DNA from: Peronospora farinosa
Lineage: Eukaryota > Oomycota > Peronosporomycetes > Peronosporales > Peronosporaceae
DNA length: 64,000 nt
NCBI GenBank assembly: GCA_947646735.1
Contig: CANTFK010000822.1
Location: 169,545 to 233,544, forward strand
Direction: 5' to 3'
Position numbers and translations under genes: made by a program. Below the pieces are notes generated by a model that had not been told where the DNA came from, ran no database searches, and saw only the letters and a list, made by a program, of their open reading frames with translations. Below, piece after piece: positions 41,395 to 59,974 of the stretch; position 1 is the stretch's first letter; every line of letters starts with the position of its first letter.

Positions 41395-41498
41395 TCCGAG
41401 TGGCCGGAATCGAACCAGCGACCAATTGATTTCCGAGAATACTGACACACAGTATTCAACACTACAGTCAATCGCTCTACCAACTGAGCTACACTCGG
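41395..41498 (-). tRNA. tRNA-Tyr(GTA), intron-containing, unit 5
   Basis: Identical tRNA gene and terminator. Spacer variants caaatc and cgccac, the commonest haplotype of the array. Confidence 0.95.
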
Positions 41499-42142: not shown

Positions 42143-42246
42143 TCCGAGTGGCCGGAATCGAACCAGCGACCAATTGATTTCCGAGAATACTGACACACAG
42201 TATTCAACACTACAGTCAATCGCTCTACCAACTGAGCTACACTCGG
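42143..42246 (-). tRNA. tRNA-Tyr(GTA), intron-containing, unit 6
   Basis: Identical tRNA gene and terminator. The spacer matches unit 5 at every diagnostic site. Confidence 0.95.
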
Positions 42247-42890
42247 TCATCAGTCTGCTACCTCAACAAACTCACACAACAGCCTAAACAAGCTTCGATA
42301 CGCACAGCCATGCATCCTACGTCACACAGCACATCATAACAGCCATGCCGCACTATTTTACCACCTCGTCCGCGTATCACTACTCGTAGTACGCCTCTTT
42401 CAGCTCCGTTTTCTACATGGACTCATCACGGCATGCAGTAGATGTTCAGCGTTTGATAAAGTGATATCAAAGTGCAAATCCCACTATCAAGTGCGACACC
42501 AAGCTCTCGGGCTGGCTTGTTCGTCTGAACACGTCAAGAGCAGGAAATGCAATCGACTTGTGGTATTGATGAAGTCCGATGCGATCGCAGTTTCCTTGTT
42601 CTGTATATTTGGCAGCAGTAGGCTTTGTTCCATCGAGGACAGACTGCCCGTACTCACCCTTCGATGGGGCGGAAATAGGCGTGCGAAAAGGACTTACACG
42701 GAACCCGCCAAGACAAATGCCAAGTCTGACGATGGTCTTGCGCGACACCACGGAAAGAGTATACGCTCTTCACGGCCGGAACCCTGCGCCACTGACAACA
42801 ACATAGCTTCTTGCCCACACAATAGAAAACAAGGCCTGCAGAGGCAGAAAGAGACGGACGCGAGACCCAAGTAAAGGCTTCAAGCCAAAA

Positions 42891-42994
42891 TCCGAGTGGC
42901 CGGAATCGAACCAGCGACCAATTGATTTCCGAGAATACTGACACACAGTATTCAACACTACAGTCAATCGCTCTACCAACTGAGCTACACTCGG
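42891..42994 (-). tRNA. tRNA-Tyr(GTA), intron-containing, unit 7
   Basis: Identical tRNA gene and terminator. Like unit 5 but with the cgtcaagag variant shared with units 9 and 10. Confidence 0.95.
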
Positions 42995-43638
42995 TCATCA
43001 GTCTGCTACCTCAACAAACTCACACAACAGCCTAAACAAGCTTCGATACGCACAGCCATGCATCCTACGTCACACAGCACATCATAACAGCCATGCCGCA
43101 CTATTTTACCACCTCGTCCGCGTATCACTACTCGTAGTACGCCTCTTTCAGCTCCGTTTTCTACATGGACTCATCACGGCATGCAGTAGATGTTCAGCGT
43201 TTGATAAAGTGATATCAAAGTGCAAATCCCACTATCAAGTGCGACACCAAGCTCTCGGGCTGGCTTGTTCGTCTGAACACGTCGAGAGCAGGAAATGCAA
43301 TCGACTTGTGGTATTGATGAAGTCCGATGCGATCGCAGTTTCCTTGTTCTGTATATTTGGCAGCAGTAGGCTTTGTTCCATCGAGGACAGACTGCCCGTA
43401 CTCACCCTTCGATGGGGCGGAAATAGGCGTGCGAAAAGGACTTACACGGAACCCGCCAAGACAAATGCCAAGTCTGACGATGGTCTTGCGCGACACCACG
43501 GAAAGAGTATACGCTCTTCACGGCCGGAACCCTGCGACACTGACAACAACATAGCTTCTTGCCCACACAATAGAAAACAAGGCCTGCAGAGGCAGAAAGA
43601 GACGGACGCGAGACCCAAGTAAAGGCTTCAAGCCAAAA

Positions 43639-43742
43639 TCCGAGTGGCCGGAATCGAACCAGCGACCAATTGATTTCCGAGAATACTGACACACAGTATT
43701 CAACACTACAGTCAATCGCTCTACCAACTGAGCTACACTCGG
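43639..43742 (-). tRNA. tRNA-Tyr(GTA), intron-containing, unit 8
   Basis: Identical tRNA gene and terminator. Spacer combines caaatc with cgacac, a recombinant of the common types. Confidence 0.95.
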
Positions 43743-44386
43743 TCATCAGGCTGCTACCTCAACAAACTCACACAACAGCCTAAACAAGCTTCGATACGCA
43801 CAGCCATGCATCCTACGTCACACAGCACATCATAACAGCCATGCCGCACTATTTTACCACCTCGTCCGCGTATCACTACTCGTAGTACGCCTCTTTCAGC
43901 TCCGTTTTCTACATGGACTCATCACGGCATGCAGTAGATGTTCAGCGTTTGATAAAGTGATATCAAAGTGTTGATCCCACTATCAAGTGCGACACCAAGC
44001 TCTCGGGCTGGCTTGTTCGTCTGAACACGTCAAGAGCAGGAAATGCAATCGACTTGTGGTATTGATGAAGTCCGATGCGATCGCAGTTTCCTTGTTCTGT
44101 ATATTTGGCAGCAGTAGGCTTTGTTCCATCGAGGACAGACTGCCCGTACTCACCCTTCGATGGGGCGGAAATAGGCGTGCGAAAAGGACTTACACGGAAC
44201 CCGCCAAGACAAATGCCAAGTCTGACGATGGTCTTGCGCGACACCACGGAAAGAGTATACGCTCTTCACGGCCGGAACCCTGCGCCACTGACAACAACAT
44301 AGCTTCTTGCCCACACAATAGAAAACAAGGCCTGCAGAGGCAGAAAGAGACGGACGCGAGACCCAAGTAAAGGCTTCAAGCCAAAA

Positions 44387-44490
44387 TCCGAGTGGCCGGA
44401 ATCGAACCAGCGACCAATTGATTTCCGAGAATACTGACACACAGTATTCAACACTACAGTCAATCGCTCTACCAACTGAGCTACACTCGG
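44387..44490 (-). tRNA. tRNA-Tyr(GTA), intron-containing, unit 9
   Basis: Identical tRNA gene and terminator. Spacer variants ttgatc plus cgtcaagag. Confidence 0.95.
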
Positions 44491-45134
44491 TCATCAGGCT
44501 GCTACCTCAACAAACTCACACAACAGCCTAAACAAGCTTCGATACGCACAGCCATGCATCCTACGTCACACAGCACATCATAACAGCCATGCCGCACTAT
44601 TTTACCACCTCGTCCGCGTATCACTACTCGTAGTACGCCTCTTGCAGCTCCGTTTTCTACATGGACTCATCACGGCATGCAGTAGATGTTCAGCGTTTGA
44701 TAAAGTGATATCAAAGTGTTGATCCCACTATCAAGTGCGACACCAAGCTCTCGGGCTGGCTTGTTCGTCTGAACACGTCAAGAGCAGGAAATGCAATCGA
44801 CTTGTGGTATTGATGAAGTCCGATGCGATCGCAGTTTCCTTGTTCTGTATATTTGGCAGCAGTAGGCTTTGTTCCATCGAGGACAGACTGCCCGTACTCA
44901 CCCTTCGATGGGGCGGAAATAGGCGTGCGAAAAGGACTTACACGGAACCCGCCAAGACAAATGCCAAGTCTGACGATGGTCTTGCGCGACACCACGGAAA
45001 GAGTATACGCTCTTCACGGCCGGAACCCTGCGCCACTGACAACAACATAGCTTCTTGCCCACACAATAGAAAACAAGGCCTGCAGAGGCAGAAAGAGACG
45101 GACGCGAGACCCAAGTAAAGGCTTCAAGCCAAAA

Positions 45135-45238
45135 TCCGAGTGGCCGGAATCGAACCAGCGACCAATTGATTTCCGAGAATACTGACACACAGTATTCAAC
45201 ACTACAGTCAATCGCTCTACCAACTGAGCTACACTCGG
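45135..45238 (-). tRNA. tRNA-Tyr(GTA), intron-containing, unit 10
   Basis: Identical tRNA gene and terminator. As unit 9 but with ttgcagc instead of tttcagc. Confidence 0.95.
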
Positions 45239-45882
45239 TCATCAGGCTGCTACCTCAACAAACTCACACAACAGCCTAAACAAGCTTCGATACGCACAGC
45301 CATGCATCCTACGTCACACAGCACATCATAACAGCCATGCCGCACTATTTTACCACCTCGTCCGCGTATCACTACTCGTAGTACGCCTCTTTCAGCTCCG
45401 TTTTCTACATGGACTCATCACGGCATGCAGTAGATGTTCAGCGTTTGATAAAGTGATATCAAAGTGCAAATCCCACTATCAAGTGCGACACCAAGCTCTC
45501 GGGCTGGCTTGTACGTCTGAACACGTCGAGAGCAGGAAATGCAATCGACTTGTGGTATTGATGAAGTCCGATGCGATCGCAGTTTCCTTGTTCTGTATAT
45601 TTGGCAGCAGTAGGCTTTGTTCCATCGAGGACAGACTGCCCGTACTCACCCTTCGATGGGGCGGAAATAGGCGTGCGAAAAGGACTTACACGGAACCCGC
45701 CAAGACAAATGCCAAGTCTGACGATGGTCTTGCGCGACACCACGGAAAGAGTATACGCTCTTCACGGCCGGAACCCTGCGCCACTGACAACAACATAGCT
45801 TCTTGCCCACACAATAGAAAACAAGGCCTGCAGAGGCAGAAAGAGACGGACGCGAGACCCAAGTAAAGGCTTCAAGCCAAAA

Positions 45883-45986
45883 TCCGAGTGGCCGGAATCG
45901 AACCAGCGACCAATTGATTTCCGAGAATACTGACACACAGTATTCAACACTACAGTCAATCGCTCTACCAACTGAGCTACACTCGG
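45883..45986 (-). tRNA. tRNA-Tyr(GTA), intron-containing, unit 11
   Basis: Identical tRNA gene and terminator. Spacer variants caaatc and cttgtacg, as in unit 13. Confidence 0.95.
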
Positions 45987-46630
45987 TCATCAGGCTGCTA
46001 CCTCAACAAACTCACACAACAGCCTAAACAAGCTTCGATACGCACAGCCATGCATCCTACGTCACACAGCACATCATAACAGCCATGCCGCACTATTTTA
46101 CCACCTCGTCCGCGTATCACTACTCGTAGTACGCCTCTTGCAGCTCCGTTTTCTACATGGACTCATCACGGCATGCAGTAGATGTTCAGCGTTTGATAAA
46201 GTGATATCAAAGTGCAAATCCCACTATCAAGTGCGACACCAAGCTCTCGGGCTGGCTTGTTCGTCTGAACACGTCGAGAGCAGGAAATGCAATCGACTTG
46301 TGGTATTGATGAAGTCCGATGCGATCGCAGTTTCCTTGTTCTGTATATTTGGCAGCAGTAGGCTTTGTTCCATCGAGGACAGACTGCCCGTACTCACCCT
46401 TCGATGGGGCGAACATAGGCGTGCGAAAAGGACGTACACGGAACCCGCCAAGACAAATGCCAAGTCTGACGATGGTCTTGCGCGACACCACGGAAAGAGT
46501 ATACGCTCTTCACGGCCGGAACCCTGCGACACTGACAACAACATAGCTTCTTGCCCACACAATAGAAAACAAGGCCTGCAGAGGCAGAAAGAGACGGACG
46601 CGAGACCCAAGTAAAGTCTTCAAGCCAAAA

Positions 46631-46734
46631 TCCGAGTGGCCGGAATCGAACCAGCGACCAATTGATTTCCGAGAATACTGACACACAGTATTCAACACTA
46701 CAGTCAATCGCTCTACCAACTGAGCTACACTCGG
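46631..46734 (-). tRNA. tRNA-Tyr(GTA), intron-containing, unit 12
   Basis: Identical tRNA gene; the 3' flank reads aagtcttcaagcc instead of aaggcttcaagcc, weakening the downstream hairpin. Spacer carries gaacatagg and gacgtac, otherwise seen only in unit 1. Confidence 0.95.
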
Positions 46735-47378
46735 TCATCAGTCTGCTACCTCAACAAACTCACACAACAGCCTAAACAAGCTTCGATACGCACAGCCATG
46801 CATCCTACGTCACACAGCACATCATAACAGCCATGCCGCACTATTTTACCACCTCGTCCGCGTATCACTACTCGTAGTACGCCTCTTTCAGCTCCGTTTT
46901 CTACATGGACTCATCACGGCATGCAGTAGATGTTCAGCGTTTGATAAAGTGATATCAAAGTGCAAATCCCACTATCAAGTGCGACACCAAGCTCTCGGGC
47001 TGGCTTGTACGTCTGAACACGTCGAGAGCAGGAAATGCAATCGACTTGTGGTATTGATGAAGTCCGATGCGATCGCAGTTTCCTTGTTCTGTATATTTGG
47101 CAGCAGTAGGCTTTGTTCCATCGAGGACAGACTGCCCGTACTCACCCTTCGATGGGGCGGAAATAGGCGTGCGAAAAGGACTTACACGGAACCCGCCAAG
47201 ACAAATGCCAAGTCTGACGATGGTCTTGCGCGACACCACGGAAAGAGTATACGCTCTTCACGGCCGGAACCCTGCGCCACTGACAACAACATAGCTTCTT
47301 GCCCACACAATAGAAAACAAGGCCTGCAGAGGCAGAAAGAGACGGACGCGAGACCCAAGTAAAGGCTTCAAGCCAAAA

Positions 47379-47482
47379 TCCGAGTGGCCGGAATCGAACC
47401 AGCGACCAATTGATTTCCGAGAATACTGACACACAGTATTCAACACTACAGTCAATCGCTCTACCAACTGAGCTACACTCGG
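47379..47482 (-). tRNA. tRNA-Tyr(GTA), intron-containing, unit 13, abutting LINE copy 1
   Basis: Complete, unmutated tRNA gene. Its nucleotide 1 (47482) is the base immediately before LINE copy 1, so the natural 5' flank (tcatcag...) has been replaced by the LINE 5' UTR. Internal boxes A and B are intact, so Pol III transcription may persist. Confidence 0.95.
47465..47482. repeat. Target-site duplication of LINE copy 1, left copy
   Basis: caactgagctacactcgg, tRNA-Tyr positions 18 to 1 on the minus strand, including most of box A. Repeated exactly at 54719-54736; the bases before the two copies differ (c versus t), fixing 18 bp. Confidence 0.93.
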
Positions 47483-47580
47483 ACTTCTCAATTTGCCGGC
47501 TACCCCACAAGTCGACTCTTCAGAAGAACCCTCTCTCGCCCGCCGCTCCCGCCGCCCCCCTCTGTCCAAGCTTTTCCGCT

Positions 47581-50385
47581 ATGTTCGCTCCCACGAATCC
47601 AACTTCGGCCACAGCTGCCAACCCAGCCAATGCCGCTCGTCATCATGGTTCCGGGAAAGAATCCAGTGAGAAGCCTGCCTCGTCTGTTCCCCCGTCGTCC
47701 TCAACCCATGGCTCTGACCAATCAGAAGCGTGGATTCGTGGAACGGGAGGGAACGGTTCGGTGTCGCAAGACTCTGAACCCACCCCAGGTTCAAGTGCAA
47801 GTTCAAGTTCAACGCGCGAAAATTTGGGATCTGGTTTTCAACCCACCCCAAGTTCAAGTTCAAGTCCAAGTGCAAGTGCAAGTGCAAGTGCAAGTGCAAG
47901 TCGACCAAAATTGGGATCCGGTTCCGAACCCACCCCAACTGCAAGTTCAACTTGCAAACATTTGGGAAGTGATTTCGAAACTGGAGAAAATTCCAGCTTC
48001 AACCCATCTTCGGAGGGACTTCCAGGACTGGATGAAGCGACCACCCCAGGTGGTACTTCAACCGAGAATCCGCCTGACACCACCACTGACGATGGGGATG
48101 TCGTCATGGTGGAAGGAGGTACTGTGGAAGCGCCAGCCGAAGACACACGTCCGACCATGGCCGAGCTGCTCCGGCAGCAAGAACACCTCCGACGCGACCG
48201 AGCTGTGATCGAAGCAGCCCGCAAGCGCGTCGAGACCCCGAAGCCTCTTGCTGTGGACATCGAGGCGATTGAGCGCCAGTATGCTGCTGGTCACGACTGG
48301 TCGCTCATCGCTTCAAGAATGGAACAAGCGCGTCCCTATCAGCTACCGAGAGCCAAGTTTGACATGGTGATCGAGACTGGTAGAGCGCTTGCGAAGACTT
48401 CCGTCCACAAGATACTGGCGTCGCTTGCCGGTCCGGATCATGGAAACAGCGAGCTCGAAGAGCTGTACAAGCAATTCGAGATTGGCCAGATTTCCAAGAT
48501 GCCGGGAGGCAACTTGCGCGTCAAGGTCAAGTCGAAAGAAGCCTGTGTGCGCTTGGAGCGCACCAAGGTGAATATCCTTGGAGGTGTGTTCACCTTCAAG
48601 GAGTTCGACATCCTTGGCGACAAGTACTACTTGGATATTTCCAATGTAGACTGCGACATGGATACGGATATGATCCTGCACCGACTGTTCCTTCTTGGAT
48701 GCAAGCCGGTATACGACACCTTCCGTGAAGTGAACATGCCGACTGGAGTCACGTCTGCGACATGGCGGGTGTACTTCCTGTCGAGATCGTGCCCTCCAGC
48801 TTTGATCATCAACAACTGTGTGTGTGATCAGCTGGTCTTCGACAACAAGCTTCATCCTGCTCACGGGAAAAATGCGCCGTTCAGCTCAGAGCGAATGCCG
48901 TTTGGCTATCGCTCGCACCACGGAATCGATCTGGGCACGCAAGATAGCGTCTTTCCGCCACCTGAGCCTGCGTCCGAGCCAGATCGCCAGCAGCAGCAAC
49001 AACACCAGCAATACCAACAACCGAAGACGTACGCGCAAGCTGCGAATGCGAATGCGAATGCGAATGCGAAGCCCAAGCCGATGCCCAAACAAACCTCGCT
49101 GCAGAGGGCAGTCGAGGACGCGAAAAAACGGGAAGGTCAGCTCCAGAAAGGAGCTCAGCATGGCAAGCCACCCGCTGCCAATCAGCTCACCAAGCTTCAA
49201 GGAAGCAACTCGGATGCGCTCTCGATCTCGACGTTCAACGGATCCAACGGCAAGATCACTCCCCCAGGGAGTCCGAAAGCTACAGCCAAGCCGAAGCTGT
49301 TGTTGACCACCGGAGCCAGCGATGGCTTCATCGATGCGTCCAACAAGAAGAAACGCGGCCGCAACGCGATCGACTTCTCCAACATGTTGGTGAAGCAGTC
49401 CACGCAGCCCTTGAATGGCATCGCCACCTCCAACTACTTTCAAGCGCTCCAGTCGATGGAGGTCAAGTTCGAATCGAAGAACTTGACTGCTGACAAGCAG
49501 TATGGAGTCCGCTATCAGGTTGTCCCTGCGGATGTGAAGCGTCCCGACGAATTGAAGACCTCGACCGAGTCTGCTTTCTTCGTCGAGAAGCACCACACGA
49601 AGATCAAGAAAGCAGCAAAGGCGTCGCCGGTCCTCGAAGTGACCGAGGCGATGATCAACGACGAGAACACGGCGCTTCTCAACACCCTCCCTGACTGTCT
49701 TGCGAAAGCGGACAAGAAGGTCGACGGCGTGTGCAAGCTGCTCGAGAACGCCACGAATCCTGACCACATCACGAAGAAAGCGGTCGAGTGTCCGCTCGCC
49801 TTCAACAGCGCATTGGCGTTGAAGATGGCTGGAAGCGGACACGAGATCGCAGAACTGGCGCAACTTCACGCGATCAACCGCGTGTTCTGTGCGACGCAGC
49901 CCAATGAAGACACCACGTTCAGCACGAAGTGGAAGAAGCTGATGGGATCGGCAGTTCCGTCGAAGCGTAGCGACATTTTCAAGACGTGTGCGAAGTGGTG
50001 GACGTCGTCCGACTCGATCAAGGAGCTGTCTCGCTCGTCCAAGGCTTTGGGCATGTTCGAGCTCATGCTCATGTCGATCGCGCCGACGATCTTCAACAAC
50101 GACCACTGGATCCAGTACCTCACGGGTCAGCCCGTCGAGTGGATCCCAGCACACAACACGCGACTTCTCCACGTGAACACCCTCCTTCGTCTCTTGCGGT
50201 CCGAGCTCGGTGCGCACTGTATGCAGCAGTGGAGTGAAGTGCAGTGGCAAGGTCACCTTCTGGACGACCTCGAGTCGCTTCGGAAGCTTGACGGGTTCTA
50301 CAAAGAAGACGCTTCGGTGTTGCAGCTTCAAGTCGTTGAAGGTGGAGTTGCGATGGTAGCGGGCGGATTGGCCACTCGTTGCTAA
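47581..50385 (+). CDS. LINE ORF1 protein, copy 1
   Basis: A 934-aa nucleic-acid-binding protein of the retrotransposon. The frame is also open 57 codons upstream through the antisense tRNA, but the ATG at 47581, first inside the element and kept in copy 2, is the logical start. N-terminal 170 residues are Ser/Pro/Ala-rich with (SA)n coded by gtgcaa repeats. A central part (about 270-440) resembles the RRM-like module of plant and oomycete LINE ORF1 proteins (LRVKVKSKEACVRLE, TSATWRVYFLSRSCP). Next come Gln-rich and (NA)n stretches, a basic patch (KKKRGRN) and a conserved helical C-terminal region. No CCHC knuckle. Likely RNP packaging of the element RNA. Confidence 0.88.
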   Translation: MFAPTNPTSATAANPANAARHHGSGKESSEKPASSVPPSSSTHGSDQSEAWIRGTGGNGSVSQDSEPTPGSSASSSSTRENLGSGFQPTPSSSSSPSASASASASASRPKLGSGSEPTPTASSTCKHLGSDFETGENSSFNPSSEGLPGLDEATTPGGTSTENPPDTTTDDGDVVMVEGGTVEAPAEDTRPTMAELLRQQEHLRRDRAVIEAARKRVETPKPLAVDIEAIERQYAAGHDWSLIASRMEQARPYQLPRAKFDMVIETGRALAKTSVHKILASLAGPDHGNSELEELYKQFEIGQISKMPGGNLRVKVKSKEACVRLERTKVNILGGVFTFKEFDILGDKYYLDISNVDCDMDTDMILHRLFLLGCKPVYDTFREVNMPTGVTSATWRVYFLSRSCPPALIINNCVCDQLVFDNKLHPAHGKNAPFSSERMPFGYRSHHGIDLGTQDSVFPPPEPASEPDRQQQQQHQQYQQPKTYAQAANANANANAKPKPMPKQTSLQRAVEDAKKREGQLQKGAQHGKPPAANQLTKLQGSNSDALSISTFNGSNGKITPPGSPKATAKPKLLLTTGASDGFIDASNKKKRGRNAIDFSNMLVKQSTQPLNGIATSNYFQALQSMEVKFESKNLTADKQYGVRYQVVPADVKRPDELKTSTESAFFVEKHHTKIKKAAKASPVLEVTEAMINDENTALLNTLPDCLAKADKKVDGVCKLLENATNPDHITKKAVECPLAFNSALALKMAGSGHEIAELAQLHAINRVFCATQPNEDTTFSTKWKKLMGSAVPSKRSDIFKTCAKWWTSSDSIKELSRSSKALGMFELMLMSIAPTIFNNDHWIQYLTGQPVEWIPAHNTRLLHVNTLLRLLRSELGAHCMQQWSEVQWQGHLLDDLESLRKLDGFYKEDASVLQLQVVEGGVAMVAGGLATRC

Positions 50386-50434
50386 ACCTTCCTCGACGTC
50401 ACAACCGACGTGGAGCAACATCAGTGTTCTGACT

Positions 50435-53400
50435 GTGAACACTAATGGCATCAAGAAGAATGGCCACCTATTTATCGAGAGCATGCTCTCCAAGTACTCA
50501 ATGGCGTGCGTCCAAGAAACCAAGTTCGGCGACAGCACCCATCTTTCCAATTTCAAGTTCCACCTCGACTCGAGCTTCAAGCACAAGGTCTTCGTGAACG
50601 ACCCCAACTCACAGCTGCATCGACCCACGCGAGGACGGAGCAATGGAGTGTTGACTGTGCTCCGCTCTGACTTCCCTGGCTTCGACTCGGCTGTTGAATT
50701 TCCAAGTCTGTCGGTTCCCGGACGCTACCTCGTCGTGAAAGTAATGGTTGAGAGTGCTCCCATCTACATTCACAACGTGTATGCGCCTGTGGACCGCCAA
50801 GAAAAGCAACAATTCTTCTCGAGCTTGGCGACCGAGGAGTTCGAAGATCAAGCGACGCATTTTGTGTTGGGCGATCTCAACACTCCCCTGGACCCGAGAC
50901 TTGATTCTTCCACCCCCGACTTGCGCTACGATCCCAGCCGGTCCAGTTGCCTCGAATGGTTGGCGAAGCTGGGTGTCGTCGATGCATGGCGGATCCACTT
51001 CGACACCAAGCGTGTGTTCACTGGTCCTCTTCCTCGGAAGAATCGGCTGGACTACATCTTGCTGTCAGAGTCTTTCTACGACCGCTTCTACGACACCTCC
51101 AAGTACTTCCTGCCGATGCATGCTGGAGACCACCTTGCTCACAGTGTGAGTTTCAGGTCTGGCTCGCAGCTGCATGGACGAGGGTACTGGAAGTTCCCCC
51201 GCTATCTGCTGGAATACCCAGTGGTGGTGTCTGCGATCGAGAAAGAAGCCGAGCTGGTCCGAGACAAGCTACGCACCACGTCCAACCCAGGCAAGATCTG
51301 GGAGGAATGGAAGGCGAGCATCAAGACCCAACTCCAAGACGTGCAGAAGAAGCTCCGGATGCAAGACTCTCAAGCTGTCGAAGAAGCTCGCGTGCAGTTG
51401 GATCAAGCTGCGGCAAGGTATCGCACAGCAGGAAGCGATTCGAATCGAGACCACTTCGACGAAGCCATGAGGAACTATAAGGAGACGGTCACGCGGACGA
51501 GCCAATACAACCAAGACACTGCATTCGACTTCCAAGCCGCCAACTCCGAGAAATCGACCAAGCACTTCTTCCGTCCGCTGGACACGAGCTTGAGACGAGT
51601 CTCGATCGAAGAGGTGATGACACCGGGTGGAAGTGTCTCGACGAACCCTCACGAGATCTCTCTCCGCTTCCTGGAGCACTGGGGGTCCGAGATGGGAGAC
51701 CCCAACAGTCCGACAGGGAGAGCTCCTCCACCCGACGATGGCATGCAGCGCAAGCTTCTCGACTCGATTGTCTGCTTCGTCACGGAGACTGACCGTGCGA
51801 TCTTGGACGCACCGGTCACTTCTTCGGACCTTGCGAGCGCGATCCGACACATGAAAGCGTCGTCAGCACCCGGCATGGACGGATTGACCGCTGGTTTCTA
51901 CCAGGTGGCTCCGGACGTGTTCGGAGAGTGCTTGAGCATCGTGTTCAACGACCGTCTCAAGCGTGGCGTGCTGCTCCCGTCTCAGCGCAAGTCTGCAGTC
52001 GTGCTTCTGCACAAGAAGGGTTCGAGAGCAGAGCCTGGCAACTACCGACCCATCGCACTGGTGCAAGTCGATGTGAAGGTGCTGTCCAAGGCTCTGACGT
52101 ATCGACTCCAGCAAGTGATCGCCGACTTGATCCATCCCGACCAGAAGGGCTTCGTCAAGGGTCGCTCAATTCACCACCATGTGCGGTTCCTCGCGGACCT
52201 CCAAGACTTGACAACGAGTCGCGATGAAGAAGCGTACGCGATGTTCTTGGACTTCCAGAAGGCGTTCGATCGAGTGAACTGGGACTACATGTTCCGGCTG
52301 CTCGAGCGAATGAGGTTCGGTTCAGAGTTTGCTCAGTGGATCAAGCTGCTGTACACCGACCCTCAAGCGCATCTTCTCATCAACCAGAACATCCAGCCTG
52401 CGCTGTTTCCGACACGAGGAGTGAAGCAAGGCGATCCGTTGTCTGCGCTGCTCTTCGTCTTGACCATCGAGCCGCTCGGCAACATGCTGCGTGCGCACGA
52501 AGAGTACGGAGTGTGTCTGAATGCAGACCACACGACGACGAGCACGTTCTTCGCGGACGACTCAACTCTGCTTGCGAGCTCGATACCGAACTTGCAGGCG
52601 CAGCTTGACACCGTGGATGAGTACTGCAAAGGCTCTGGCGCGAAGCTCAATCTGTCCAAGTCGACGCTGCTAGCACTAAATCGGAACCAGACCTGCCCTT
52701 CGCTCCCCGGAGTGCAAGTGCTGGGTCGTGCGGAGACGGTGAAGTACCTTGGCATCCCGTTTGGGCAGTCGTCGGTGGATGACGACCTCGTGGAGTTCCT
52801 CGAGCAGCGCTTCTACGACGGCTTCAAGATGTGGTACCGGCGCGCAAGGACGCTTCGTGGGCGACTTCTGGTCGCTCAAACGATGGTGCTCTCCCGCTTG
52901 TGGCACTACACACAACATGTGTCAATCCCAGCAACAGTCGTGAAGCGATGGCAGTCGATGCTGAATCGGTTCGTGCTGAGTCGAAAGCACGACCGAGACG
53001 CGTCGTACATCCAGCTGATCCCAAGCGAGTTCCTGTATCAGCGACGGAGTGAAGGTGGTTTGGGAATCCCAAGCCTGGAAGCACATCTCAAGCGCCAGCG
53101 TCTTCAGCTGCTTCTGCAGTTCATACGGGCTGCGAGAGTGACGGAAGCGCGGAACTGGACGACAGCGAGCTGTGAGTTGCTCCAACTGGTTCTTCCTCGC
53201 ACCGGTGGCTACAACGCACTCGACTTCCTCGTGGTCTCTCCACTCCGACATGGCGACATGATCAAGTGGAGACTGACTTCAACCTGGTGGAGAGCGACGT
53301 GGACGTGGTGGTACAAGATCCGCTGGGAAGTCACGTGGCAAGACCTTCCTTTTGAGGAGCGCGCTTGGTACGGTCTCCGACAGCCGATCTGGTTCCATTC

Positions 53401-54514
53401 GGATGCAGAGCTTCATTTCGAGCAGACTCCGCGGACTCACACCTGCGTGGCGCATCGGCGGTGCATTGGGATGGTGGTCGAGCCACAGCGGAGTTTCCGG
53501 CTGCACGTGTCACGAGTCTTTGGTGTGCGGTCGCTCGTTGACTTCATGCGTGAAAGCTGTGCTTGGCCGTCGCAGCAAGATTTCGTCCAGCGCCACCTTG
53601 ACTTCACGCTTGCATCTGTCTCCCCTGGACAACAGGCAAAGTGGCTGCGAGTGTTGTACAAGGAAGCGACTCAGATCGTCGAGCGACTTGGCGCGACGCA
53701 GCTTGTTCTGCAGGCTTCGAGCAGTGCACGGCGACTTCTTCCCCATCTGGGTTGCAATAGCGACGCGAAGGTGTGCTTGATCCCAGCGATCCCGAGATCT
53801 GCGCTGCTGCGTGTGGTGTGGACGCCAAAACCACCGACGAAGCCACATCCGATGACTGTGCACTCGCAGCGAGTTGGCGACGAGCAGATCAAAGCGTACG
53901 TCAAGTTCAGCAAGCACCTGCGCAAGATCCTGCTCCCTGTGTTCGAAGATCTGCAGTTCCGCCTCGCGTTTCGACTCCTACCGGTTCGATCGCGGTTCTG
54001 GTTCCTGCAGCAGTCGAACCCACGCATCATATACTGCATCCGAGACAGGTGCGACGCAGTCGAGACAGAGCAGCACTTGTTCTTCGAATGTTCACTCGCG
54101 ACAAGACTGTGGGAACACTTTGGGAACATCATGGCGCCGTTCGTCCGATCTCAACTGACATGGGTCATGATAGCGACAGCAAGGAAACCAGTCGTGCGAG
54201 ACGAATGGAAGGAGTGTGAAGACATCATCGGAGATGTATGGCACACGCTCCGCGCGGTGACACTCCACTTCATCTGGTCCGACCGCAATCGGTGTCTGTT
54301 CGACGGAAGACAGCCCACACCGACGACATCAGCAACGATGGTCATCTTCACCACAGCCAGCGCGCACTTTCGGCACAACCTGAGGAGGCGCTACGATGAC
54401 GATGAGAGCGCATCACTGGAGAAGGCGCTTATCAAGATGAGGAAGTATCCGCCTTTTGGAGATTTTGCAACGGCGCACCCCGCCATGTTCCCAGTCCGTC
54501 ACCTCCAACAGTAG
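50435..54514 (+). CDS. LINE ORF2: APE endonuclease and reverse transcriptase, copy 1
   Basis: 1,359 aa counted from the GTG at 50435; the frame is open from 50360, in +1 relative to ORF1, and overlaps its end by 26 nt. N-terminal APE domain: TVNTNGIK, QETKFG, NVYAP, GDLNTPL, RLDYILLS and the terminal GDHLAH. RT domain with SAPGMDGLTAGFYQ, PGNYRPIALVQVDVK, FLDFQKAFDRVNWD, GVKQGDPLSALLF and the FADD active site (about 706), then KYLGIPFG. The C-terminal zf-RVT finger reads CIRDRCDAVETEQHLFFEC. No in-frame ATG exists before the APE motif TVNTNG (first ATG 50483), so translation must use reinitiation, frameshifting or a non-AUG codon. No RNase H domain. It nicks the target and primes cDNA synthesis. 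Confidence 0.93.
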   Translation: MNTNGIKKNGHLFIESMLSKYSMACVQETKFGDSTHLSNFKFHLDSSFKHKVFVNDPNSQLHRPTRGRSNGVLTVLRSDFPGFDSAVEFPSLSVPGRYLVVKVMVESAPIYIHNVYAPVDRQEKQQFFSSLATEEFEDQATHFVLGDLNTPLDPRLDSSTPDLRYDPSRSSCLEWLAKLGVVDAWRIHFDTKRVFTGPLPRKNRLDYILLSESFYDRFYDTSKYFLPMHAGDHLAHSVSFRSGSQLHGRGYWKFPRYLLEYPVVVSAIEKEAELVRDKLRTTSNPGKIWEEWKASIKTQLQDVQKKLRMQDSQAVEEARVQLDQAAARYRTAGSDSNRDHFDEAMRNYKETVTRTSQYNQDTAFDFQAANSEKSTKHFFRPLDTSLRRVSIEEVMTPGGSVSTNPHEISLRFLEHWGSEMGDPNSPTGRAPPPDDGMQRKLLDSIVCFVTETDRAILDAPVTSSDLASAIRHMKASSAPGMDGLTAGFYQVAPDVFGECLSIVFNDRLKRGVLLPSQRKSAVVLLHKKGSRAEPGNYRPIALVQVDVKVLSKALTYRLQQVIADLIHPDQKGFVKGRSIHHHVRFLADLQDLTTSRDEEAYAMFLDFQKAFDRVNWDYMFRLLERMRFGSEFAQWIKLLYTDPQAHLLINQNIQPALFPTRGVKQGDPLSALLFVLTIEPLGNMLRAHEEYGVCLNADHTTTSTFFADDSTLLASSIPNLQAQLDTVDEYCKGSGAKLNLSKSTLLALNRNQTCPSLPGVQVLGRAETVKYLGIPFGQSSVDDDLVEFLEQRFYDGFKMWYRRARTLRGRLLVAQTMVLSRLWHYTQHVSIPATVVKRWQSMLNRFVLSRKHDRDASYIQLIPSEFLYQRRSEGGLGIPSLEAHLKRQRLQLLLQFIRAARVTEARNWTTASCELLQLVLPRTGGYNALDFLVVSPLRHGDMIKWRLTSTWWRATWTWWYKIRWEVTWQDLPFEERAWYGLRQPIWFHSDAELHFEQTPRTHTCVAHRRCIGMVVEPQRSFRLHVSRVFGVRSLVDFMRESCAWPSQQDFVQRHLDFTLASVSPGQQAKWLRVLYKEATQIVERLGATQLVLQASSSARRLLPHLGCNSDAKVCLIPAIPRSALLRVVWTPKPPTKPHPMTVHSQRVGDEQIKAYVKFSKHLRKILLPVFEDLQFRLAFRLLPVRSRFWFLQQSNPRIIYCIRDRCDAVETEQHLFFECSLATRLWEHFGNIMAPFVRSQLTWVMIATARKPVVRDEWKECEDIIGDVWHTLRAVTLHFIWSDRNRCLFDGRQPTPTTSATMVIFTTASAHFRHNLRRRYDDDESASLEKALIKMRKYPPFGDFATAHPAMFPVRHLQQ

Positions 54515-54718
54515 CCACTGCTCCTGCGTCTATTCACACACATCGGAATCATCCACACTCGCACATCACGCAAGAAACAACTTGCACGCTATTCCCAAGA
54601 AACATGAAACATAGCAACTGTACAGTATATTTATTAGAAAAACAGTAGTAGTTTCTATACATAGCTAGGTAGATTGAGTAGTCACTTCGTCTAAATTCTA
54701 GTAATATAGACAACCTTT
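54515..54718 (+). other. 3' UTR of LINE copy 1
   Basis: AT-richer than the ORFs (tatatttattagaaaaacag) and ending ...atagacaacctt(t) directly at the target-site duplication. It has no poly(A), so reverse transcription probably recognises a 3' UTR structure or starts at the target without an A-tail. Confidence 0.7.
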
Positions 54719-54736
54719 CAACTGAGCTACACTCGG
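54719..54736 (-). pseudogene. tRNA-Tyr 5' fragment, right copy of the target-site duplication
   Basis: Only nucleotides 1-18 of the tRNA survive here (box A part), produced by the duplication at LINE insertion. The natural tRNA 5' flank (tcatcagtctgc) follows, confirming the empty-site order. Confidence 0.93.
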
Positions 54737-55381
54737 TCATCAGTCTGCTACCTCAACAAACTCACACAACAGCCTAAACAAGCTTCGATACGCACAGCCA
54801 TGCATCCTACGTCACACAGCACATCATAACAGCCATGCCGCACTATTTTACCACCTCGTCCGCGTATCACTACTCGTAGTACGCCTCTTGCAGCTCCGTT
54901 TTCTACATGGACTCATCACGGCATGCAGTAGATGTTCAGCGTTTGATAGAGTGATATCAAAGTGCAAATCCCACTATCAAGTGCGACACCAAGCTCTCGG
55001 GCTGGCTTGTACGTCTGAACACGTCGAGAGCAGGAAATGCAATCGACTTGTGGTATTGATGAAGTCCGATGCGATCGCAGTTTCCTTGTTCTGTATATTT
55101 GGCAGCAGTAGGCTTTGTTCCATCGAGGACAGACTGCCCGTACTCACCCTTCGATGGGGCGGAACATAGGCGTGCGAAAAGGACTTACACGGAACCCGCC
55201 AAGACAAATGCCAAGTCTGACGATGGTCTTGCGCGACACCACGGAAAGAGTATACGCTCTTCACGGCCGGAACCCTGCGCCACTGACAACAACATAGCTT
55301 CTTGCCCACACAATAGAAAACAAGGCCTGCAGAGGCAGAAAGAGACGGACGCGAGACCCAAGTAAAGGCTTCAAGCCAAAA

Positions 55382-55485
55382 TCCGAGTGGCCGGAATCGA
55401 ACCAGCGACCAATTGATTTCCGAGAATACTGACACACAGTATTCAACACTACAGTCAATCGCTCTACCAACTGAGCTACACTCGG
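55382..55485 (-). tRNA. tRNA-Tyr(GTA), intron-containing, array 2 unit 1
   Basis: Identical to the array 1 genes, with intron and TTTT terminator. Spacer variants gatagag, cttgtacg and ggaacatagg (1-nt longer). Confidence 0.95.
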
Positions 55486-56129
55486 TCATCAGGCTGCTAC
55501 CTCAACAAACTCACACAACAGCCTAAACAAGCTTCGATACGCACAGCCATGCATCCTACGTCACACAGCACATCATAACAGCCATGCCGCACTATTTTAC
55601 CACCTCGTCCGCGTATCACTACTCGTAGTACGCCTCTTTCAGCTCCGTTTTCTACATGGACTCATCACGGCATGCAGTAGATGTTCAGCGTTTGATAAAG
55701 TGATATCAAAGTGCAAATCCCACTATCAAGTGCGACACCAAGCTCTCGGGCTGGCTTGTTCGTCTGAACACGTCGAGAGCAGGAAATGCAATCGACTTGT
55801 GGTATTGATGAAGTCCGATGCGATCGCAGTTTCCTTGTTCTGTATATTTGGCAGCAGTAGGCTTTGTTCCATCGAGGACAGACTGCCCGTACTCACCCTT
55901 CGATGGGGCGGAAATAGGCGTGCGAAAAGGACTTACACGGAACCCGCCAAGACAAATGCCAAGTCTGACGATGGTCTTGCGCGACACCACGGAAAGAGTA
56001 TACGCTCTTCACGGCCGGAACCCTGCGCCACTGACAACAACATAGCTTCTTGCCCACACAATAGAAAACAAGGCCTGCAGAGGCAGAAAGAGACGGACGC
56101 GAGACCCAAGTAAAGGCTTCAAGCCAAAA

Positions 56130-56233
56130 TCCGAGTGGCCGGAATCGAACCAGCGACCAATTGATTTCCGAGAATACTGACACACAGTATTCAACACTAC
56201 AGTCAATCGCTCTACCAACTGAGCTACACTCGG
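56130..56233 (-). tRNA. tRNA-Tyr(GTA), intron-containing, array 2 unit 2
   Basis: Identical gene. The spacer is the array 1 common haplotype (gataaag, caaatc, cgccac), the only such unit on this side of the LINE. Confidence 0.95.
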
Positions 56234-56877
56234 TCATCAGTCTGCTACCTCAACAAACTCACACAACAGCCTAAACAAGCTTCGATACGCACAGCCATGC
56301 ATCCTACGTCACACAGCACATCATAACAGCCATGCCGCACTATTTTACCACCTCGTCCGCGTATCACTACTCGTAGTACGCCTCTTTCAGCTCCGTTTTC
56401 TACATGGACTCATCACGGCATGCAGTAGATGTTCAGCGTTTGATAGAGTGATATCAAAGTGCAAATCCCACTATCAAGTGCGACACCAAGCTCTCGGGCT
56501 GGCTTGTACGTCTGAACACGTCGAGAGCAGGAAATGCAATCGACTTGTGGTATTGATGAAGTCCGATGCGATCGCAGTTTCCTTGTTCTGTATATTTGGC
56601 AGCAGTAGGCTTTGTTCCATCGAGGACAGACTGCCCGTACTCACCCTTCGATGGGGCGGAAATAGGCGTGCGAAAAGGACTTACACGGAACCCGCCAAGA
56701 CAAATGCCAAGTCTGACGATGGTCTTGCGCGACACCACGGAAAGAGTATACGCTCTTCACGGCCGGAACCCTGCGCCACTGACAACAACATAGCTTCTTG
56801 CCCACACAATAGAAAACAAGGCCTGCAGAGGCAGAAAGAGACGGACGCGAGACCCAAGTAAAGGCTTCAAGCCAAAA

Positions 56878-56981
56878 TCCGAGTGGCCGGAATCGAACCA
56901 GCGACCAATTGATTTCCGAGAATACTGACACACAGTATTCAACACTACAGTCAATCGCTCTACCAACTGAGCTACACTCGG
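56878..56981 (-). tRNA. tRNA-Tyr(GTA), intron-containing, array 2 unit 3
   Basis: Identical gene and terminator. Spacer variants gatagag and cttgtacg. Confidence 0.95.
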
Positions 56982-57625
56982 TCATCAGTCTGCTACCTCA
57001 ACAAACTCACACAACAGCCTAAACAAGCTTCGATACGCACAGCCATGCATCCTACGTCACACAGCACATCATAACAGCCATGCCGCACTATTTTACCACC
57101 TCGTCCGCGTATCACTACTCGTAGTACGCCTCTTTCAGCTCCGTTTTCTACATGGACTCATCACGGCATGCAGTAGATGTTCAGCGTTTGATAGAGTGAT
57201 ATCAAAGTGCAAATCCCACTATCAAGTGCGACACCAAGCTCTCGGGCTGGCTTGTTCGTCTGAACACGTCGAGAGCAGGAAATGCAATCGACTTGTGGTA
57301 TTGATGAAGTCCGATGCGATCGCAGTTTCCTTGTTCTGTATATTTGGCAGCAGTAGGCTTTGTTCCATCGAGGACAGACTGCCCGTACTCACCCTTCGAT
57401 GGGGCGGAAATAGGCGTGCGAAAAGGACTTACACGGAACCCGCCAAGACAAATGCCAAGTCTGACGATGGTCTTGCGCGACACCACGGAAAGAGTATACG
57501 CTCTTCACGGCCGGAACCCTGCGCCACTGACAACAACATAGCTTCTTGCCCACACAATAGAAAACAAGGCCTGCAGAGGCAGAAAGAGACGGACGCGAGA
57601 CCCAAGTAAAGGCTTCAAGCCAAAA

Positions 57626-57729
57626 TCCGAGTGGCCGGAATCGAACCAGCGACCAATTGATTTCCGAGAATACTGACACACAGTATTCAACACTACAGTC
57701 AATCGCTCTACCAACTGAGCTACACTCGG
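57626..57729 (-). tRNA. tRNA-Tyr(GTA), intron-containing, array 2 unit 4
   Basis: Identical gene and terminator. Spacer variants gatagag and cttgttcg, the common type on this side. Confidence 0.95.
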
Positions 57730-58374
57730 TCATCAGTCTGCTACCTCAACAAACTCACACAACAGCCTAAACAAGCTTCGATACGCACAGCCATGCATCC
57801 TACGTCACACAGCACATCATAACAGCCATGCCGCACTATTTTACCACCTCGTCCGCGTATCACTACTCGTAGTACGCCTCTTTCAGCTCCGTTTTCTACA
57901 TGGACTCATCACGGCATGCAGTAGATGTTCAGCGTTTGATAGAGTGATATCAAAGTGCAAATCCCACTATCAAGTGCGACACCAAGCTCTCGGGCTGGCT
58001 TGTTCGTCTGAACACGTCGAGAGCAGGAAATGCAATCGACTTGTGGTATTGATGAAGTCCGATGCGATCGCAGTTTCCTTGTTCTGTATATTTGGCAGCA
58101 GTAGGCTTTGTTCCATCGAGGACAGACTGCCCGTACTCACCCTTCGATGGGGCGGAACATAGGCGTGCGAAAAGGACTTACACGGAACCCGCCAAGACAA
58201 ATGCCAAGTCTGACGATGGTCTTGCGCGACACCACGGAAAGAGTATACGCTCTTCACGGCCGGAACCCTGCGCCACTGACAACAACATAGCTTCTTGCCC
58301 ACACAATAGAAAACAAGGCCTGCAGAGGCAGAAAGAGACGGACGCGAGACCCAAGTAAAGGCTTCAAGCCAAAA

Positions 58375-58478
58375 TCCGAGTGGCCGGAATCGAACCAGCG
58401 ACCAATTGATTTCCGAGAATACTGACACACAGTATTCAACACTACAGTCAATCGCTCTACCAACTGAGCTACACTCGG
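58375..58478 (-). tRNA. tRNA-Tyr(GTA), intron-containing, array 2 unit 5
   Basis: Identical gene and terminator. Has ggaacatagg (749-bp unit) as in array 2 unit 1, but with cttgttcg. Confidence 0.95.
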
Positions 58479-59122
58479 TCATCAGTCTGCTACCTCAACA
58501 AACTCACACAACAGCCTAAACAAGCTTCGATACGCACAGCCATGCATCCTACGTCACACAGCACATCATAACAGCCATGCCGCACTATTTTACCACCTCG
58601 TCCGCGTATCACTACTCGTAGTACGCCTCTTTCAGCTCCGTTTTCTACATGGACTCATCACGGCATGCAGTAGATGTTCAGCGTTTGATAGAGTGATATC
58701 AAAGTGCAAATCCCACTATCAAGTGCGACACCAAGCTCTCGGGCTGGCTTGTTCGTCTGAACACGTCGAGAGCAGGAAATGCAATCGACTTGTGGTATTG
58801 ATGAAGTCCGATGCGATCGCAGTTTCCTTGTTCTGTATATTTGGCAGCAGTAGGCTTTGTTCCATCGAGGACAGACTGCCCGTACTCACCCTTCGATGGG
58901 GCGGAAATAGGCGTGCGAAAAGGACTTACACGGAACCCGCCAAGACAAATGCCAAGTCTGACGATGGTCTTGCGCGACACCACGGAAAGAGTATACGCTC
59001 TTCACGGCCGGAACCCTGCGCCACTGACAACAACATAGCTTCTTGCCCACACAATAGAAAACAAGGCCTGCAGAGGCAGAAAGAGACGGACGCGAGACCC
59101 AAGTAAAGGCTTCAAGCCAAAA

Positions 59123-59226
59123 TCCGAGTGGCCGGAATCGAACCAGCGACCAATTGATTTCCGAGAATACTGACACACAGTATTCAACACTACAGTCAAT
59201 CGCTCTACCAACTGAGCTACACTCGG
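59123..59226 (-). tRNA. tRNA-Tyr(GTA), intron-containing, array 2 unit 6
   Basis: Identical gene and terminator. The spacer equals that of array 2 unit 4. Last intact tRNA-Tyr in the window. Confidence 0.95.
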
Positions 59227-59870
59227 TCATCAGTCTGCTACCTCAACAAACTCACACAACAGCCTAAACAAGCTTCGATACGCACAGCCATGCATCCTAC
59301 GTCACACAGCACATCATAACAGCCATGCCGCACTATTTTACCACCTCGTCCGCGTATCACTACTCGTAGTACGCCTCTTTCAGCTCCGTTTTCTACATGG
59401 ACTCATCACGGCATGCAGTAGATGTTCAGCGTTTGATAGAGTGATATCAAAGTGCAAATCCCACTATCAAGTGCGACACCAAGCTCTCGGGCTGGCTTGT
59501 TCGTCTGAACACGTCGAGAGCAGGAAATGCAATCGACTTGTGGTATTGATGAAGTCCGATGCGATCGCAGTTTCCTTGTTCTGTATATTTGGCAGCAGTA
59601 GGCTTTGTTCCATCGAGGACAGACTGCCCGTACTCACCCTTCGATGGGGCGGAAATAGGCGTGCGAAAAGGACTTACACGGAACCCGCCAAGACAAATGC
59701 CAAGTCTGACGATGGTCTTGCGCGACACCACGGAAAGAGTATACGCTCTTCACGGCCGGAACCCTGCGCCACTGACAACAACATAGCTTCTTGCCCACAC
59801 AATAGAAAACAAGGCCTGCAGAGGCAGAAAGAGACGGACGCGAGACCCAAGTAAAGGCTTCAAGCCAAAA

Positions 59871-59974
59871 TCCGAGTGGCCGGAATCGAACCAGCGACCA
59901 ATTGATTTCCGAGAATACTGACACACAGTATTCAGATTATGAGACTGACGCTCTACCAACTGAGCCAAAGGAGC
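59871..59974 (-). pseudogene. Chimeric tRNA: elongator tRNA-Met 5' half fused to tRNA-Tyr 3' half
   Basis: Minus strand, 59974 to 59935: acceptor GCTCCTT, TG, D-arm GCTC-AGTTGGTA-GAGC, anticodon arm TCAGT-CTCATAA-TC, that is elongator tRNA-Met with anticodon CAT (U31/U39 mismatch as in other eukaryotes). From 59934 on the sequence is tRNA-Tyr: all but the first 3 nt of its intron, the 3' half and the terminator. The junction carries a shared TTCA (59931-59934). GCTCCTT cannot pair with the Tyr 3' strand CACTCGG, so no functional tRNA can form. LINE copy 2 begins at the next base after the Met nucleotide 1. Confidence 0.9.

Follow-up and report, generated by a model that had tools for sequence, protein, structure and literature searches.

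The 64,000-nt stretch of Peronospora farinosa contig CANTFK010000822.1 analyzed here (the window) carries a tandem array with one intron-bearing tRNA-Tyr(GTA) gene per unit and two copies of a LINE (Table 1). Copy 1 fills the interval between two occurrences of the 18-mer CAACTGAGCTACACTCGG without a gap, and it lacks a poly(A) tail. The tRNA-Tyr gene on its left, whose nucleotide 1 is position 47482, is identical to the reference empty array unit. The window holds 20 copies of the 18-mer, namely 18 uninterrupted target sites within the array and the two flanks of copy 1; one empty site aligns with both flanks, so that no target bases were deleted. These flanks and empty sites bear out the first-pass annotation, which placed the LINE immediately next to nucleotide 1 of a tRNA-Tyr gene and took the gene to be kept whole on the left side, where ARAGORN calls an intact tRNA-Tyr(GTA). 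Intron mode was required for these genes, a plain run returning 0. That annotation described a single insertion; copy 1 is real, but a second copy at 59975-64000 had been overlooked, adjoining a tRNA-Met/Tyr chimera.

Table 1. Features of the tRNA-Tyr array and the two LINE copies in the window
Feature	Position	Strand	Basis
Tandem array of 748-bp units (a few 749)	37823..59974	-	blastn of one unit, ARAGORN intron mode, repeat search
Intact tRNA-Tyr(GTA) gene with intron, target of copy 1	47379..47482	-	ARAGORN linear mode, left flank
Left 18-bp repeat, tRNA positions 1-18, box A included	47465..47482	+	sequence
LINE copy 1, 7236 bp, orientation opposite to tRNA	47483..54718	+	
LINE start ACTTCTCAATTTGCC, match to oomycete INR/FPR core promoter from +1 A onward	47483..47497	+	
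ORF1, 934 aa from ATG	47581..50385	+	
ORF2 open frame, 1384 codons	50360..54514	+	
APE endonuclease domain, catalytic-site residues conserved	50414..51097	+	Pfam PF03372; human LINE-1 ORF2p alignment; predicted fold
Reverse transcriptase domain, FADD motif	52010..52759	+	Pfam PF00078, E 1.4e-37
Predicted hairpin near LINE RNA 3' end	54689..54711	+	RNA folding prediction
Right 18-bp repeat; first bases (CAAC, per Ala cases) element-borne across copies	54719..54736	+	
5' half of tRNA-Met(CAT)-like gene fused to tRNA-Tyr intron and 3' half	59933..59974	-	
LINE copy 2, 99.75% identity over 4026 bp present, cut by contig end	59975..64000	+	

The two ORFs of the LINE overlap by 26 nt in different frames, and ORF2 has no ATG before the start of the APE domain. 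ORF2 encodes APE followed by reverse transcriptase (RT), the order of APE-type non-LTR retrotransposons (L1 group), and its best PDB match is LINE-1 ORF2p (1.5e-60) versus 5.1e-24 for R2. The APE residues E40, D159, N161, D244, and H245 are invariant and N14 is nearly invariant in an alignment of 17 sequences. Pfam matches of both ORFs up to an E value of 0.1 comprised RT and APE only, with no restriction-like endonuclease and no DDE transposase, and the predicted fold of the APE domain likewise speaks against a restriction-like endonuclease. ORF1 is predicted, at low overall confidence, to form tandem RRM-like folds and a helical C-terminal domain; fold matches were weak and RRM-like only, none reaching an E value of ≤0.001. 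In the window, the degenerate promoter pattern AYTYYNCAWTTTNYY matches only at 47483, 59975, and 1590 (minus strand).

The LINE is site-specific for tRNA position 1. An exact search for its first 21 bases finds 16 sites in the 46.85-Mb genome, and all 16 abut tRNA position 1, 15 of them with zero offset to tRNA sequence and one with an offset of one base. Eleven are flush with an intact tRNA gene (Ile, Phe, Tyr, Lys, Ala, Cys, Thr, or Trp; 8 isoacceptor types); the other five comprise the one with an extra base, one at the Tyr/Met chimera, and three on tRNA remnants of 18 to 19 nt in stacks of elements. ARAGORN adds one acceptor-stem pair in 6 of 12 called genes when the first bases of the LINE are included; "position 1" is therefore set by the usual 7-bp acceptor stem, with the empty copies as further grounds for Tyr. 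At the other end, the last 16 bases of the element were found at 19 genome sites (18 exact, 1 with one mismatch), every one of which runs on into [CT]AACTGA[AG]C plus sequence resembling a tRNA 5' end. The 3'-end censuses of this LINE and of a companion SINE used element-only patterns, those with part of box A being biased to tRNA sites; both kinds of pattern recovered the same 19 LINE and 16 SINE places. Reversed-pattern controls gave 2 matches for the box-A-containing SINE 3' pattern and 0 for the other four censuses. The zero-offset specificity for the tRNA 5' end proposed in the first-pass annotation therefore stands, the one extra base aside; most copies were expected to start at tRNA position 1 with duplications of the target, and repeats of 14 to 18 bp accompany 9 of 15 copies (see below).

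These counts rest on copies of this LINE with readable ends; more distant LINE families (26 to 32% identity) and degraded fragments without such ends (in C48, C233, C273, and C13) are left out. Five further matches to the 5' pattern, with 3 mismatches, were rejected: they agree with the LINE at no more than 14 or 15 of its first 15 bases, a tRNA neither adjoins them nor lies elsewhere in the examined locus, and blastn against the whole LINE gave nothing better than an E value of 0.32. Two of them (L059 and L060) match the LINE by blastn in the same 15 bases, and L062, at a site without a tRNA, aligns weakly with its first 55 bases (72%, E 0.32). We read the five from their sequences as host promoters or chance matches, and L062 may be a distant or old off-target relative. 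Ten loci from the ORF2 search of the genome (L021 to L030; 34 of 190 candidates scored) have no tRNA in the examined flanks; several are internal pieces or older copies, and they make a weak control because several have their ends outside the locus. Protein matches, from two large searches that scored at least 7989 and at least 7987 candidates, mark the genome as that of an oomycete, and an IMG/VR scan with ORF2 found no relative.

The copies run in the opposite direction to the tRNA and leave its whole gene on their left. Clean, ungapped repeats of 14 to 18 bp flank 9 of the 15 copies with pairable ends, spread over six contigs (C198, C220, C229, C235, C240, and C248). Of the remaining six, four lie in stacks, one shows a base difference in the tRNA, and one has mixed flanks; the copy at C248:614250 has Trp on its left flank and Thr on its right. 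Repeat length varies with the target: Tyr, Lys, and Phe genes have 18 bp, Cys and Thr genes 16 (the Thr copy with one extra base having 17), and Ala genes 14. The 18-bp duplication first described at copy 1 is thus confirmed for Tyr, Lys, and Phe but does not extend to Cys, Thr, or Ala, and the outer CAAC is element-borne in Ala. The target sequence is CCATTTGAGC in Ala and CCACTGAGC in Cys and Thr, yet the 3' junction in all three still reads CAACTGAGC, indicating that those bases arrive with the element. Two nicks 18 nt apart, as originally envisaged, are not borne out, since only 14 nt derive from the target in tRNA-Ala; this places the priming nick at or before ~A14 of the tRNA sense strand, the remainder of the apparent repeat being the 3' end of the element. 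The cut may be directed by the APE domain itself or by a Pol III factor. In addition to target-site duplication, the family shows the 5' truncation typical of LINEs: one truncated copy in C248 begins one base from a remnant of tRNA-Thr position 1, indicating that the cut is independent of the 5' sequence of the LINE.

Elements also stack ahead of a single tRNA, spaced by 18 to 19 nt. Three stack spacers, each just ahead of a LINE start, agree with their own tRNA at positions 1 to 5 only and then resemble another, which may reflect variable priming or later recombination. LINE copies in Ala and Thr genes differ at only 1 to 2 positions over 5832 nt and have different flanks, and so represent recent separate insertions; two copies in the Cys array differ at 2 of 5832 nt.

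The companion element is a tRNA-like SINE of ~275 bp that uses the same position-1 site in 8 of 8 copies read among 16, with an ARAGORN-called tRNA adjoining 7 of these 8. All 16 SINE 3' ends lead into AAACTGAG. The predicted 3' hairpin lies in the same place in LINE subfamilies A and B and in the SINE, with differing stem sequences; that of subfamily A was no better than in shuffled sequences. Similarity between the SINE and LINE 3' tails was within chance, shuffles scoring as high in 258 of 2000 cases for LINE A and 416 of 2000 for B.

How does one element reach the same nucleotide in so many tRNA genes? The best explanation is a site-specific, APE-type LINE (L1 group) that has been active recently and whose address is the box A/5' end of class I tRNA genes, with at least eight amino-acid types among its targets; we assign this reading a probability of about 0.82, site specificity and insertion mechanism taken together. 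From the junctions, we infer target-primed reverse transcription from a box A nick, aided by a box-A-like RNA 3' end. The ORF2 endonuclease would nick the tRNA sense strand within box A, at or before ~A14; the LINE RNA, whose 3' end would bear a box A copy (CAACUGAGC) acquired from a donor tRNA, would be set on this nick and reverse-transcribed; and the second strand would be cut at tRNA position 1 and joined to the cDNA. The 7-bp length of acceptor stems keeps position 1 at a constant distance from box A. Since insertion restores the tRNA gene, that gene could be struck again, which would push older copies upstream. Transcription would start at the first base of the LINE from the INR/FPR promoter, and since this promoter lies downstream of the start site, each full-length copy would have its own.

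A more specific version of this mechanism, which we put forward tentatively, gives the RNA the homing role. LINE and SINE transcripts would read through into the donor tRNA copy, so that the RNA 3' end carries box A, and this tail would pair with box A, once nicked, in any class I tRNA gene; the regenerated gene would serve as a reusable port, with the youngest stacked element beside the tRNA. If so, one element could address much of the tRNA gene set.

Alternatively, as with TRE5 of Dictyostelium or Ty3 of yeast, ORF1 or ORF2 might bind TFIIIC or TFIIIB on the tRNA gene, and the endonuclease would cut where it is held, without reading the box A sequence. In favor, the targeted tRNA genes have internal Pol III promoters, TFIIIB proteins are reported to interact with TRE5-A ORF1 (PMC5911963), and ORF1 here is large, with a conserved C-terminal part to which no role is assigned. 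Against such tethering, the LINE junction is nucleotide-constant and inside the gene, whereas windows outside the gene are reported for other tRNA-gene targeters; tethering combined with a short sequence preference would give an identical pattern. We consider tethering by itself unlikely. The spread of most copies by unequal crossing-over of tRNA arrays, which would make the 16 sites nonindependent, is decidedly improbable: Peronosporaceae tRNA arrays are reported to grow and shrink through recombination (PMC11540230, PMC9584435), and the Cys-array pair and the copy with mixed flanks fit such a process, but eight isoacceptor types are targeted and the near-identical Ala and Thr copies differ in their flanks. 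An assembly artefact joining repeats merits very little credence, even though C220, C240, and C248 end in or soon after copies and the Tyr/Met chimera is close to a contig end, for a single array unit supplies both flanks of copy 1, one half on each side, and the clean repeats recur on six contigs. Least credible of all, and refuted by the register-locked junctions, is random insertion with survival by selection at tRNA genes only; tRNA arrays might be a safe place, but nucleotide precision is not a product of selection, and chance would place an oriented insertion at position 1 with a probability of ~3e-5 (from 2736 first-look tRNA candidates, 63 of them scored) versus the 16 of 16 found.

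Several known elements resemble the preferred reading, a box A-addressed LINE, in part. TRE5, TRE3, NLTR-A, and NLTR-B of social amoebae are likewise LINEs reported to target many tRNA genes, and TRE5 also lies upstream of the tRNA gene in opposite orientation. Reported distances from the gene are 40 to 54 bp for TRE5, 2 to 6 bp from the mature tRNA for NLTR-A, and 13 to 33 bp upstream for the LTR element DGLT-A. The TRE/NLTR elements land next to the gene, within a range that excludes the tRNA coding sequence, whereas here the duplicated interval is the first 14 to 18 nt of the gene itself, base-fixed and with box A, and the element 3' end, unlike theirs, matches the target. Fixed targets characterize R1-, R2-, SART-, and TRAS-type LINEs, some with a 3' RNA extending into the target, which is rRNA or telomere. 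Dewa, Mutsu (5S), and Keno (U2), which belong to the Tx1 clade, are sequence-specific LINEs in multicopy small RNA genes, as here; the present LINE shares site-specific insertion with this clade, a likeness in that one trait. Dewa is linked to a tRNA-Leu spacer (PMC3706591), the spacer of one tRNA type, in contrast to insertion within genes of at least eight types. Dada DNA transposons do insert within tRNA genes, and three Perkinsus families have a putative duplication, TAGCTC, that is part of the same box A; they are described with a DDE transposase and one tRNA type per family (PMC3706591), as opposed to APE plus RT and many types. Utopia of oomycetes is also a site-specific LINE in a small RNA gene, but its description gives a restriction-like endonuclease and a disrupted U2 snRNA gene (PMC4640811), whereas the present LINE has APE and keeps the tRNA gene.

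Among the open-access literature matches listed, with subscription papers and Repbase outside the scope, no report of this LINE was found, and the tRNA-gene LINEs described there appear to insert close to the gene or in a single spacer. What distinguishes the present LINE is that box A, a conserved Pol III promoter element, would be cut in many tRNA types while the gene is left whole. Leaving the gene intact would free a parasite from the difficulty that a gene-dense genome poses, and tRNA arrays would become renewable landing sites. The element offers a compact natural system for tRNA-gene insertion, in which the role of the LINE RNA 3' end in target choice becomes testable. The LINE and SINE together also bear on Peronosporaceae tRNA arrays, for which a SINE-like character has been described (PMC11540230).

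LINE copy 1 begins directly after nucleotide 1 (47482) of a tRNA-Tyr gene, and downstream of it a second copy of tRNA positions 1 to 18 leads into the native upstream sequence of the array unit. Eighteen unbroken 18-mers in the window represent empty target sites, and alignment of an empty site to both flanks of copy 1 revealed no deleted nucleotides. Flanks and empty-site comparison bear out the flush insertion at tRNA-Tyr nucleotide 1 reported by the first-pass annotation. The single insertion described there is real, but a second copy, at 59975, had been missed. The tRNA to the left of copy 2 (59840-59990) is a chimera of a tRNA-Tyr 3' half plus intron fused at TTCA to a tRNA-Met(CAT)-like 5' half, resulting from either recombination or assembly error; the Met-like portion is also present at C226:387520 and 388281.

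Features of the tRNA-Tyr array and the inserted LINE copies
Feature	Position	Size	Remarks
Tandem array	37823-59974	748-bp units	One intron-bearing tRNA-Tyr(GTA) per unit, minus strand
LINE copy 1	47483-54718	7236 bp	Opposite orientation to tRNA; within one array unit
ORF1	47581-50385	934 codons	
ORF2 open frame	50360-54514		APE and reverse transcriptase
LINE copy 2	Starts 59975		Continues past contig end

The 46.85-Mb assembly (274 contigs; the window is C220:169545-233544) was searched with the first 21 element bases, which are free of tRNA sequence, and the left flanks of all 16 exact matches were examined. Eleven directly adjoin an ARAGORN-called tRNA gene with zero gap (Ile, Phe, Tyr, Lys, Trp, and two each of Ala, Cys, and Thr), one has an additional base between a tRNA-Thr (locus L054) and the element, one is window copy 2 at its chimeric tRNA, and three are preceded by an 18-19 nt tRNA remnant, itself preceded by another LINE or SINE. 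Five sites with three mismatches (loci L058-L062) match 14 or 15 of the element's first 15 bases, with no tRNA adjacent or elsewhere in the examined locus and no significant resemblance to the rest of the LINE (best E 0.32). Host promoters or chance probably account for them, although L062, which aligns at 72% across 55 bases, may be an old relative.

For 3' ends, a pattern including part of box A matched 19 places (17 exactly, the other two with one and two mismatches). Since such a pattern favors tRNA sites, the search was redone using only the final 16 bases of the element, returning the identical 19 places and no others (18 exact, one with one mismatch). The ORF2 genome search gave at least 40 matches, from 34 scored of 190 candidates; blastn of the last 300 element bases against its loci recovered 18 distinct 3' ends, all 18 followed by CAACTGA. 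No LINE 3' end away from box-A-like sequence was found by either genome-wide 3' pattern or by blastn on the ORF2-search loci. Degraded fragments on C48, C233, C273, and C13 without a readable pair of ends were excluded from this census, and distant LINE families (26-32% identity) fall outside it. The tabulated flanks put all 16 exact 5' ends at tRNA sequence, one with an extra base; insertion at tRNA position 1 is confirmed and generalized beyond tRNA-Tyr, and site specificity of the LINE for this position is close to certain.

According to excerpts of the literature, TRE5 inserts upstream of tRNA genes at a distance of 40-54 bp and NLTR-A at 2-6 bp, Dewa is located in a tRNA-Leu spacer, Dada are DNA transposons inside tRNA genes, some with a putative TAGCTC duplication, and Utopia is an oomycete LINE that is U2 specific and RLE type. 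Among the matches listed from the open-access PMC literature, there was no LINE cutting inside the genes of many tRNA types. Excerpts of two papers describe tRNA arrays as abundant in Peronosporaceae (PMC9584435, PMC11540230). A further array in this genome, C247:171488-193171, has many tRNA genes at ~179 bp spacing, and C247 carries 0 of the 16 exact 5' ends of the genome-wide census.

The duplication was read from 15 copies with both ends paired. The ungapped repeat is 18 nt in the Tyr, Lys, and Phe copies, 17 nt where a Thr copy carries the extra base, 16 nt in one Cys and two Thr copies, and 14 nt in both Ala copies, so the 18-bp duplication proposed earlier holds for the first three but shortens to 14-17 nt elsewhere. 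Six copies lack a clean repeat. Four are in stacks: both copies of the Ile stack on C56, the first copy on C240, and C248:625396. A fifth, a Cys copy, differs by one base at tRNA position 7. The sixth, C248:614250, has Trp on the left and Thr on the right, for which recombination between copies is the best reading. The outermost right end of the C56 stack agrees with the tRNA-Ile gene on the left. The Ala and Cys/Thr genes read CCATTTGAGC or CCACTGAGC, and the right junction nevertheless reads CAACTGAGC. The outer bases (CAAC in Ala) are therefore element borne, which puts the nick used for priming at about A14 or earlier on the tRNA sense strand. These junctions do not support an 18-nt stagger between two nicks as such.

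Three stack-internal spacers agree with their own tRNA at positions 1-5 only and then resemble another tRNA (in the junction reading, the Ile spacer resembles Ala and the Thr spacer Phe; the Cys spacer has no assigned match), which suggests that the RNA tail may hold box A and part of the donor's acceptor copy. Alternatively, recombination with minimal homology could have produced these spacers. The best-supported reading of the mechanism, which we infer, is that a first nick would fall in box A, the RNA tail would bear box A, and a second nick would fall at tRNA position 1. Just ahead of the tail, a hairpin is predicted for both LINE subfamilies (A and B) and for the SINE; the stems differ in sequence. 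The hairpin beats shuffles in LINE B (4/200 as good) but not in LINE A (110/200); for the SINE, 21/200 shuffles were as good.

The element's first 15 bases (47483-47497) agree with the oomycete INR/FPR block. The full degenerate INR/FPR string, AYTYYNCAWTTTNYY, occurs in the 64-kb window at both LINE starts and at 1590 (minus strand) and nowhere else. The INR/FPR-like start is common to the tRNA-less L058-L062, perhaps host promoters. Excerpts of one study give FPR as CAWTTTNYY or MWTTTNC and place INR at the start site (PMC3599244). Transcription may start at base 1 with its promoter downstream, in which case full-length copies would be self-sufficient.

A companion SINE of ~275 bp adjoins the C240 LINE copy; its head is tRNA-like and its 3' end reads ACAACTAACTTA|AAACTGAGC. 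Its 3' ends number 16, 15 of them exact, by a box-A-including pattern (2 matches with the reversed control); the element-only pattern found the same 16 places, all exact and all running on into AAACTGAG. Eight of the 16 copies were examined in full (loci including L034, L016, L044, and L082-L086). In seven, the SINE sits next to a tRNA gene called by ARAGORN (Cys, Thr, Ile, Lys, and Phe at three loci), either exactly at its position 1 or no more than two bases from it; the remaining copy occupies an altered tRNA-Ala site and has a clean Ala right end. At L085, a tRNA-Ala locus, the left junction is CATCGCCCT rather than CATCCCC, an untemplated or a repaired 5' junction. ARAGORN called no tRNA on the SINE itself; box-A-like and box-B-like sequences point to a tRNA origin. 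Similarity between SINE and LINE tails is within chance (258/2000 shuffles for A, 416/2000 for B), so it is the shared site that suggests dependence on the LINE.

Stacks read tRNA-Thr, SINE, 5'-truncated LINE, full LINE, and native flank on C248, where the truncated LINE begins one base from a tRNA remnant; tRNA-Cys, SINE, and LINE on C240; and tRNA-Ile, A-like LINE, and LINE B on C56. The intact gene beside each stack fits repeated use of one tRNA port, and the youngest element would be nearest the tRNA. Over 5832 bp, 1-2 nt separate the copies at Ala and Thr genes, and the Tyr copy differs from them at 8-10 positions; the Lys copy is the most distant A copy (131-142 differences from seven others). 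LINE copies are densely clustered among tRNA-Thr, -Trp, and -Ser genes at C248:588000-642617; flanks that mix Trp and Thr occur there, and the two copies at 595681/596119 lie tail to tail.

The predicted ORF1 model is of low confidence (mean pLDDT 62.9) and weakly resembles tandem RRM proteins (best E 1.1e-3). ORF2 matches APE (PF03372, E 1.9e-7) and reverse transcriptase (PF00078, E 1.4e-37); among solved structures, human LINE-1 ORF2p is the best sequence match (1.5e-60), with R2 at 5.1e-24. Because the two frames overlap by 26 nt (50360-50385) in different frames and ORF2 has no ATG upstream of the APE start, ORF2 is likely translated by frameshifting or re-initiation. In a Lagenidium relative (P0053), one protein combines an ORF1-like part (38% identity) with an APE domain. 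Across 17 aligned sequences, there is no variation at APE residues E40, D159, N161, D244, and H245 and almost none at N14; we take the catalytic roles of these residues from LINE-1. The predicted APE model (mean pLDDT 75.3) has a LINE-1 endonuclease as top structural match. The protein matches point to an oomycete host, probably a Peronospora: among the matches listed, ORF2 relatives occur in Globisporangium splendens, Peronospora matthiolae, and Lagenidium giganteum, and ORF1 relatives in Peronospora farinosa (99% identity, 40% of query), P. effusa, Plasmopara halstedii, Phytophthora cactorum, and Pythium brassicae.
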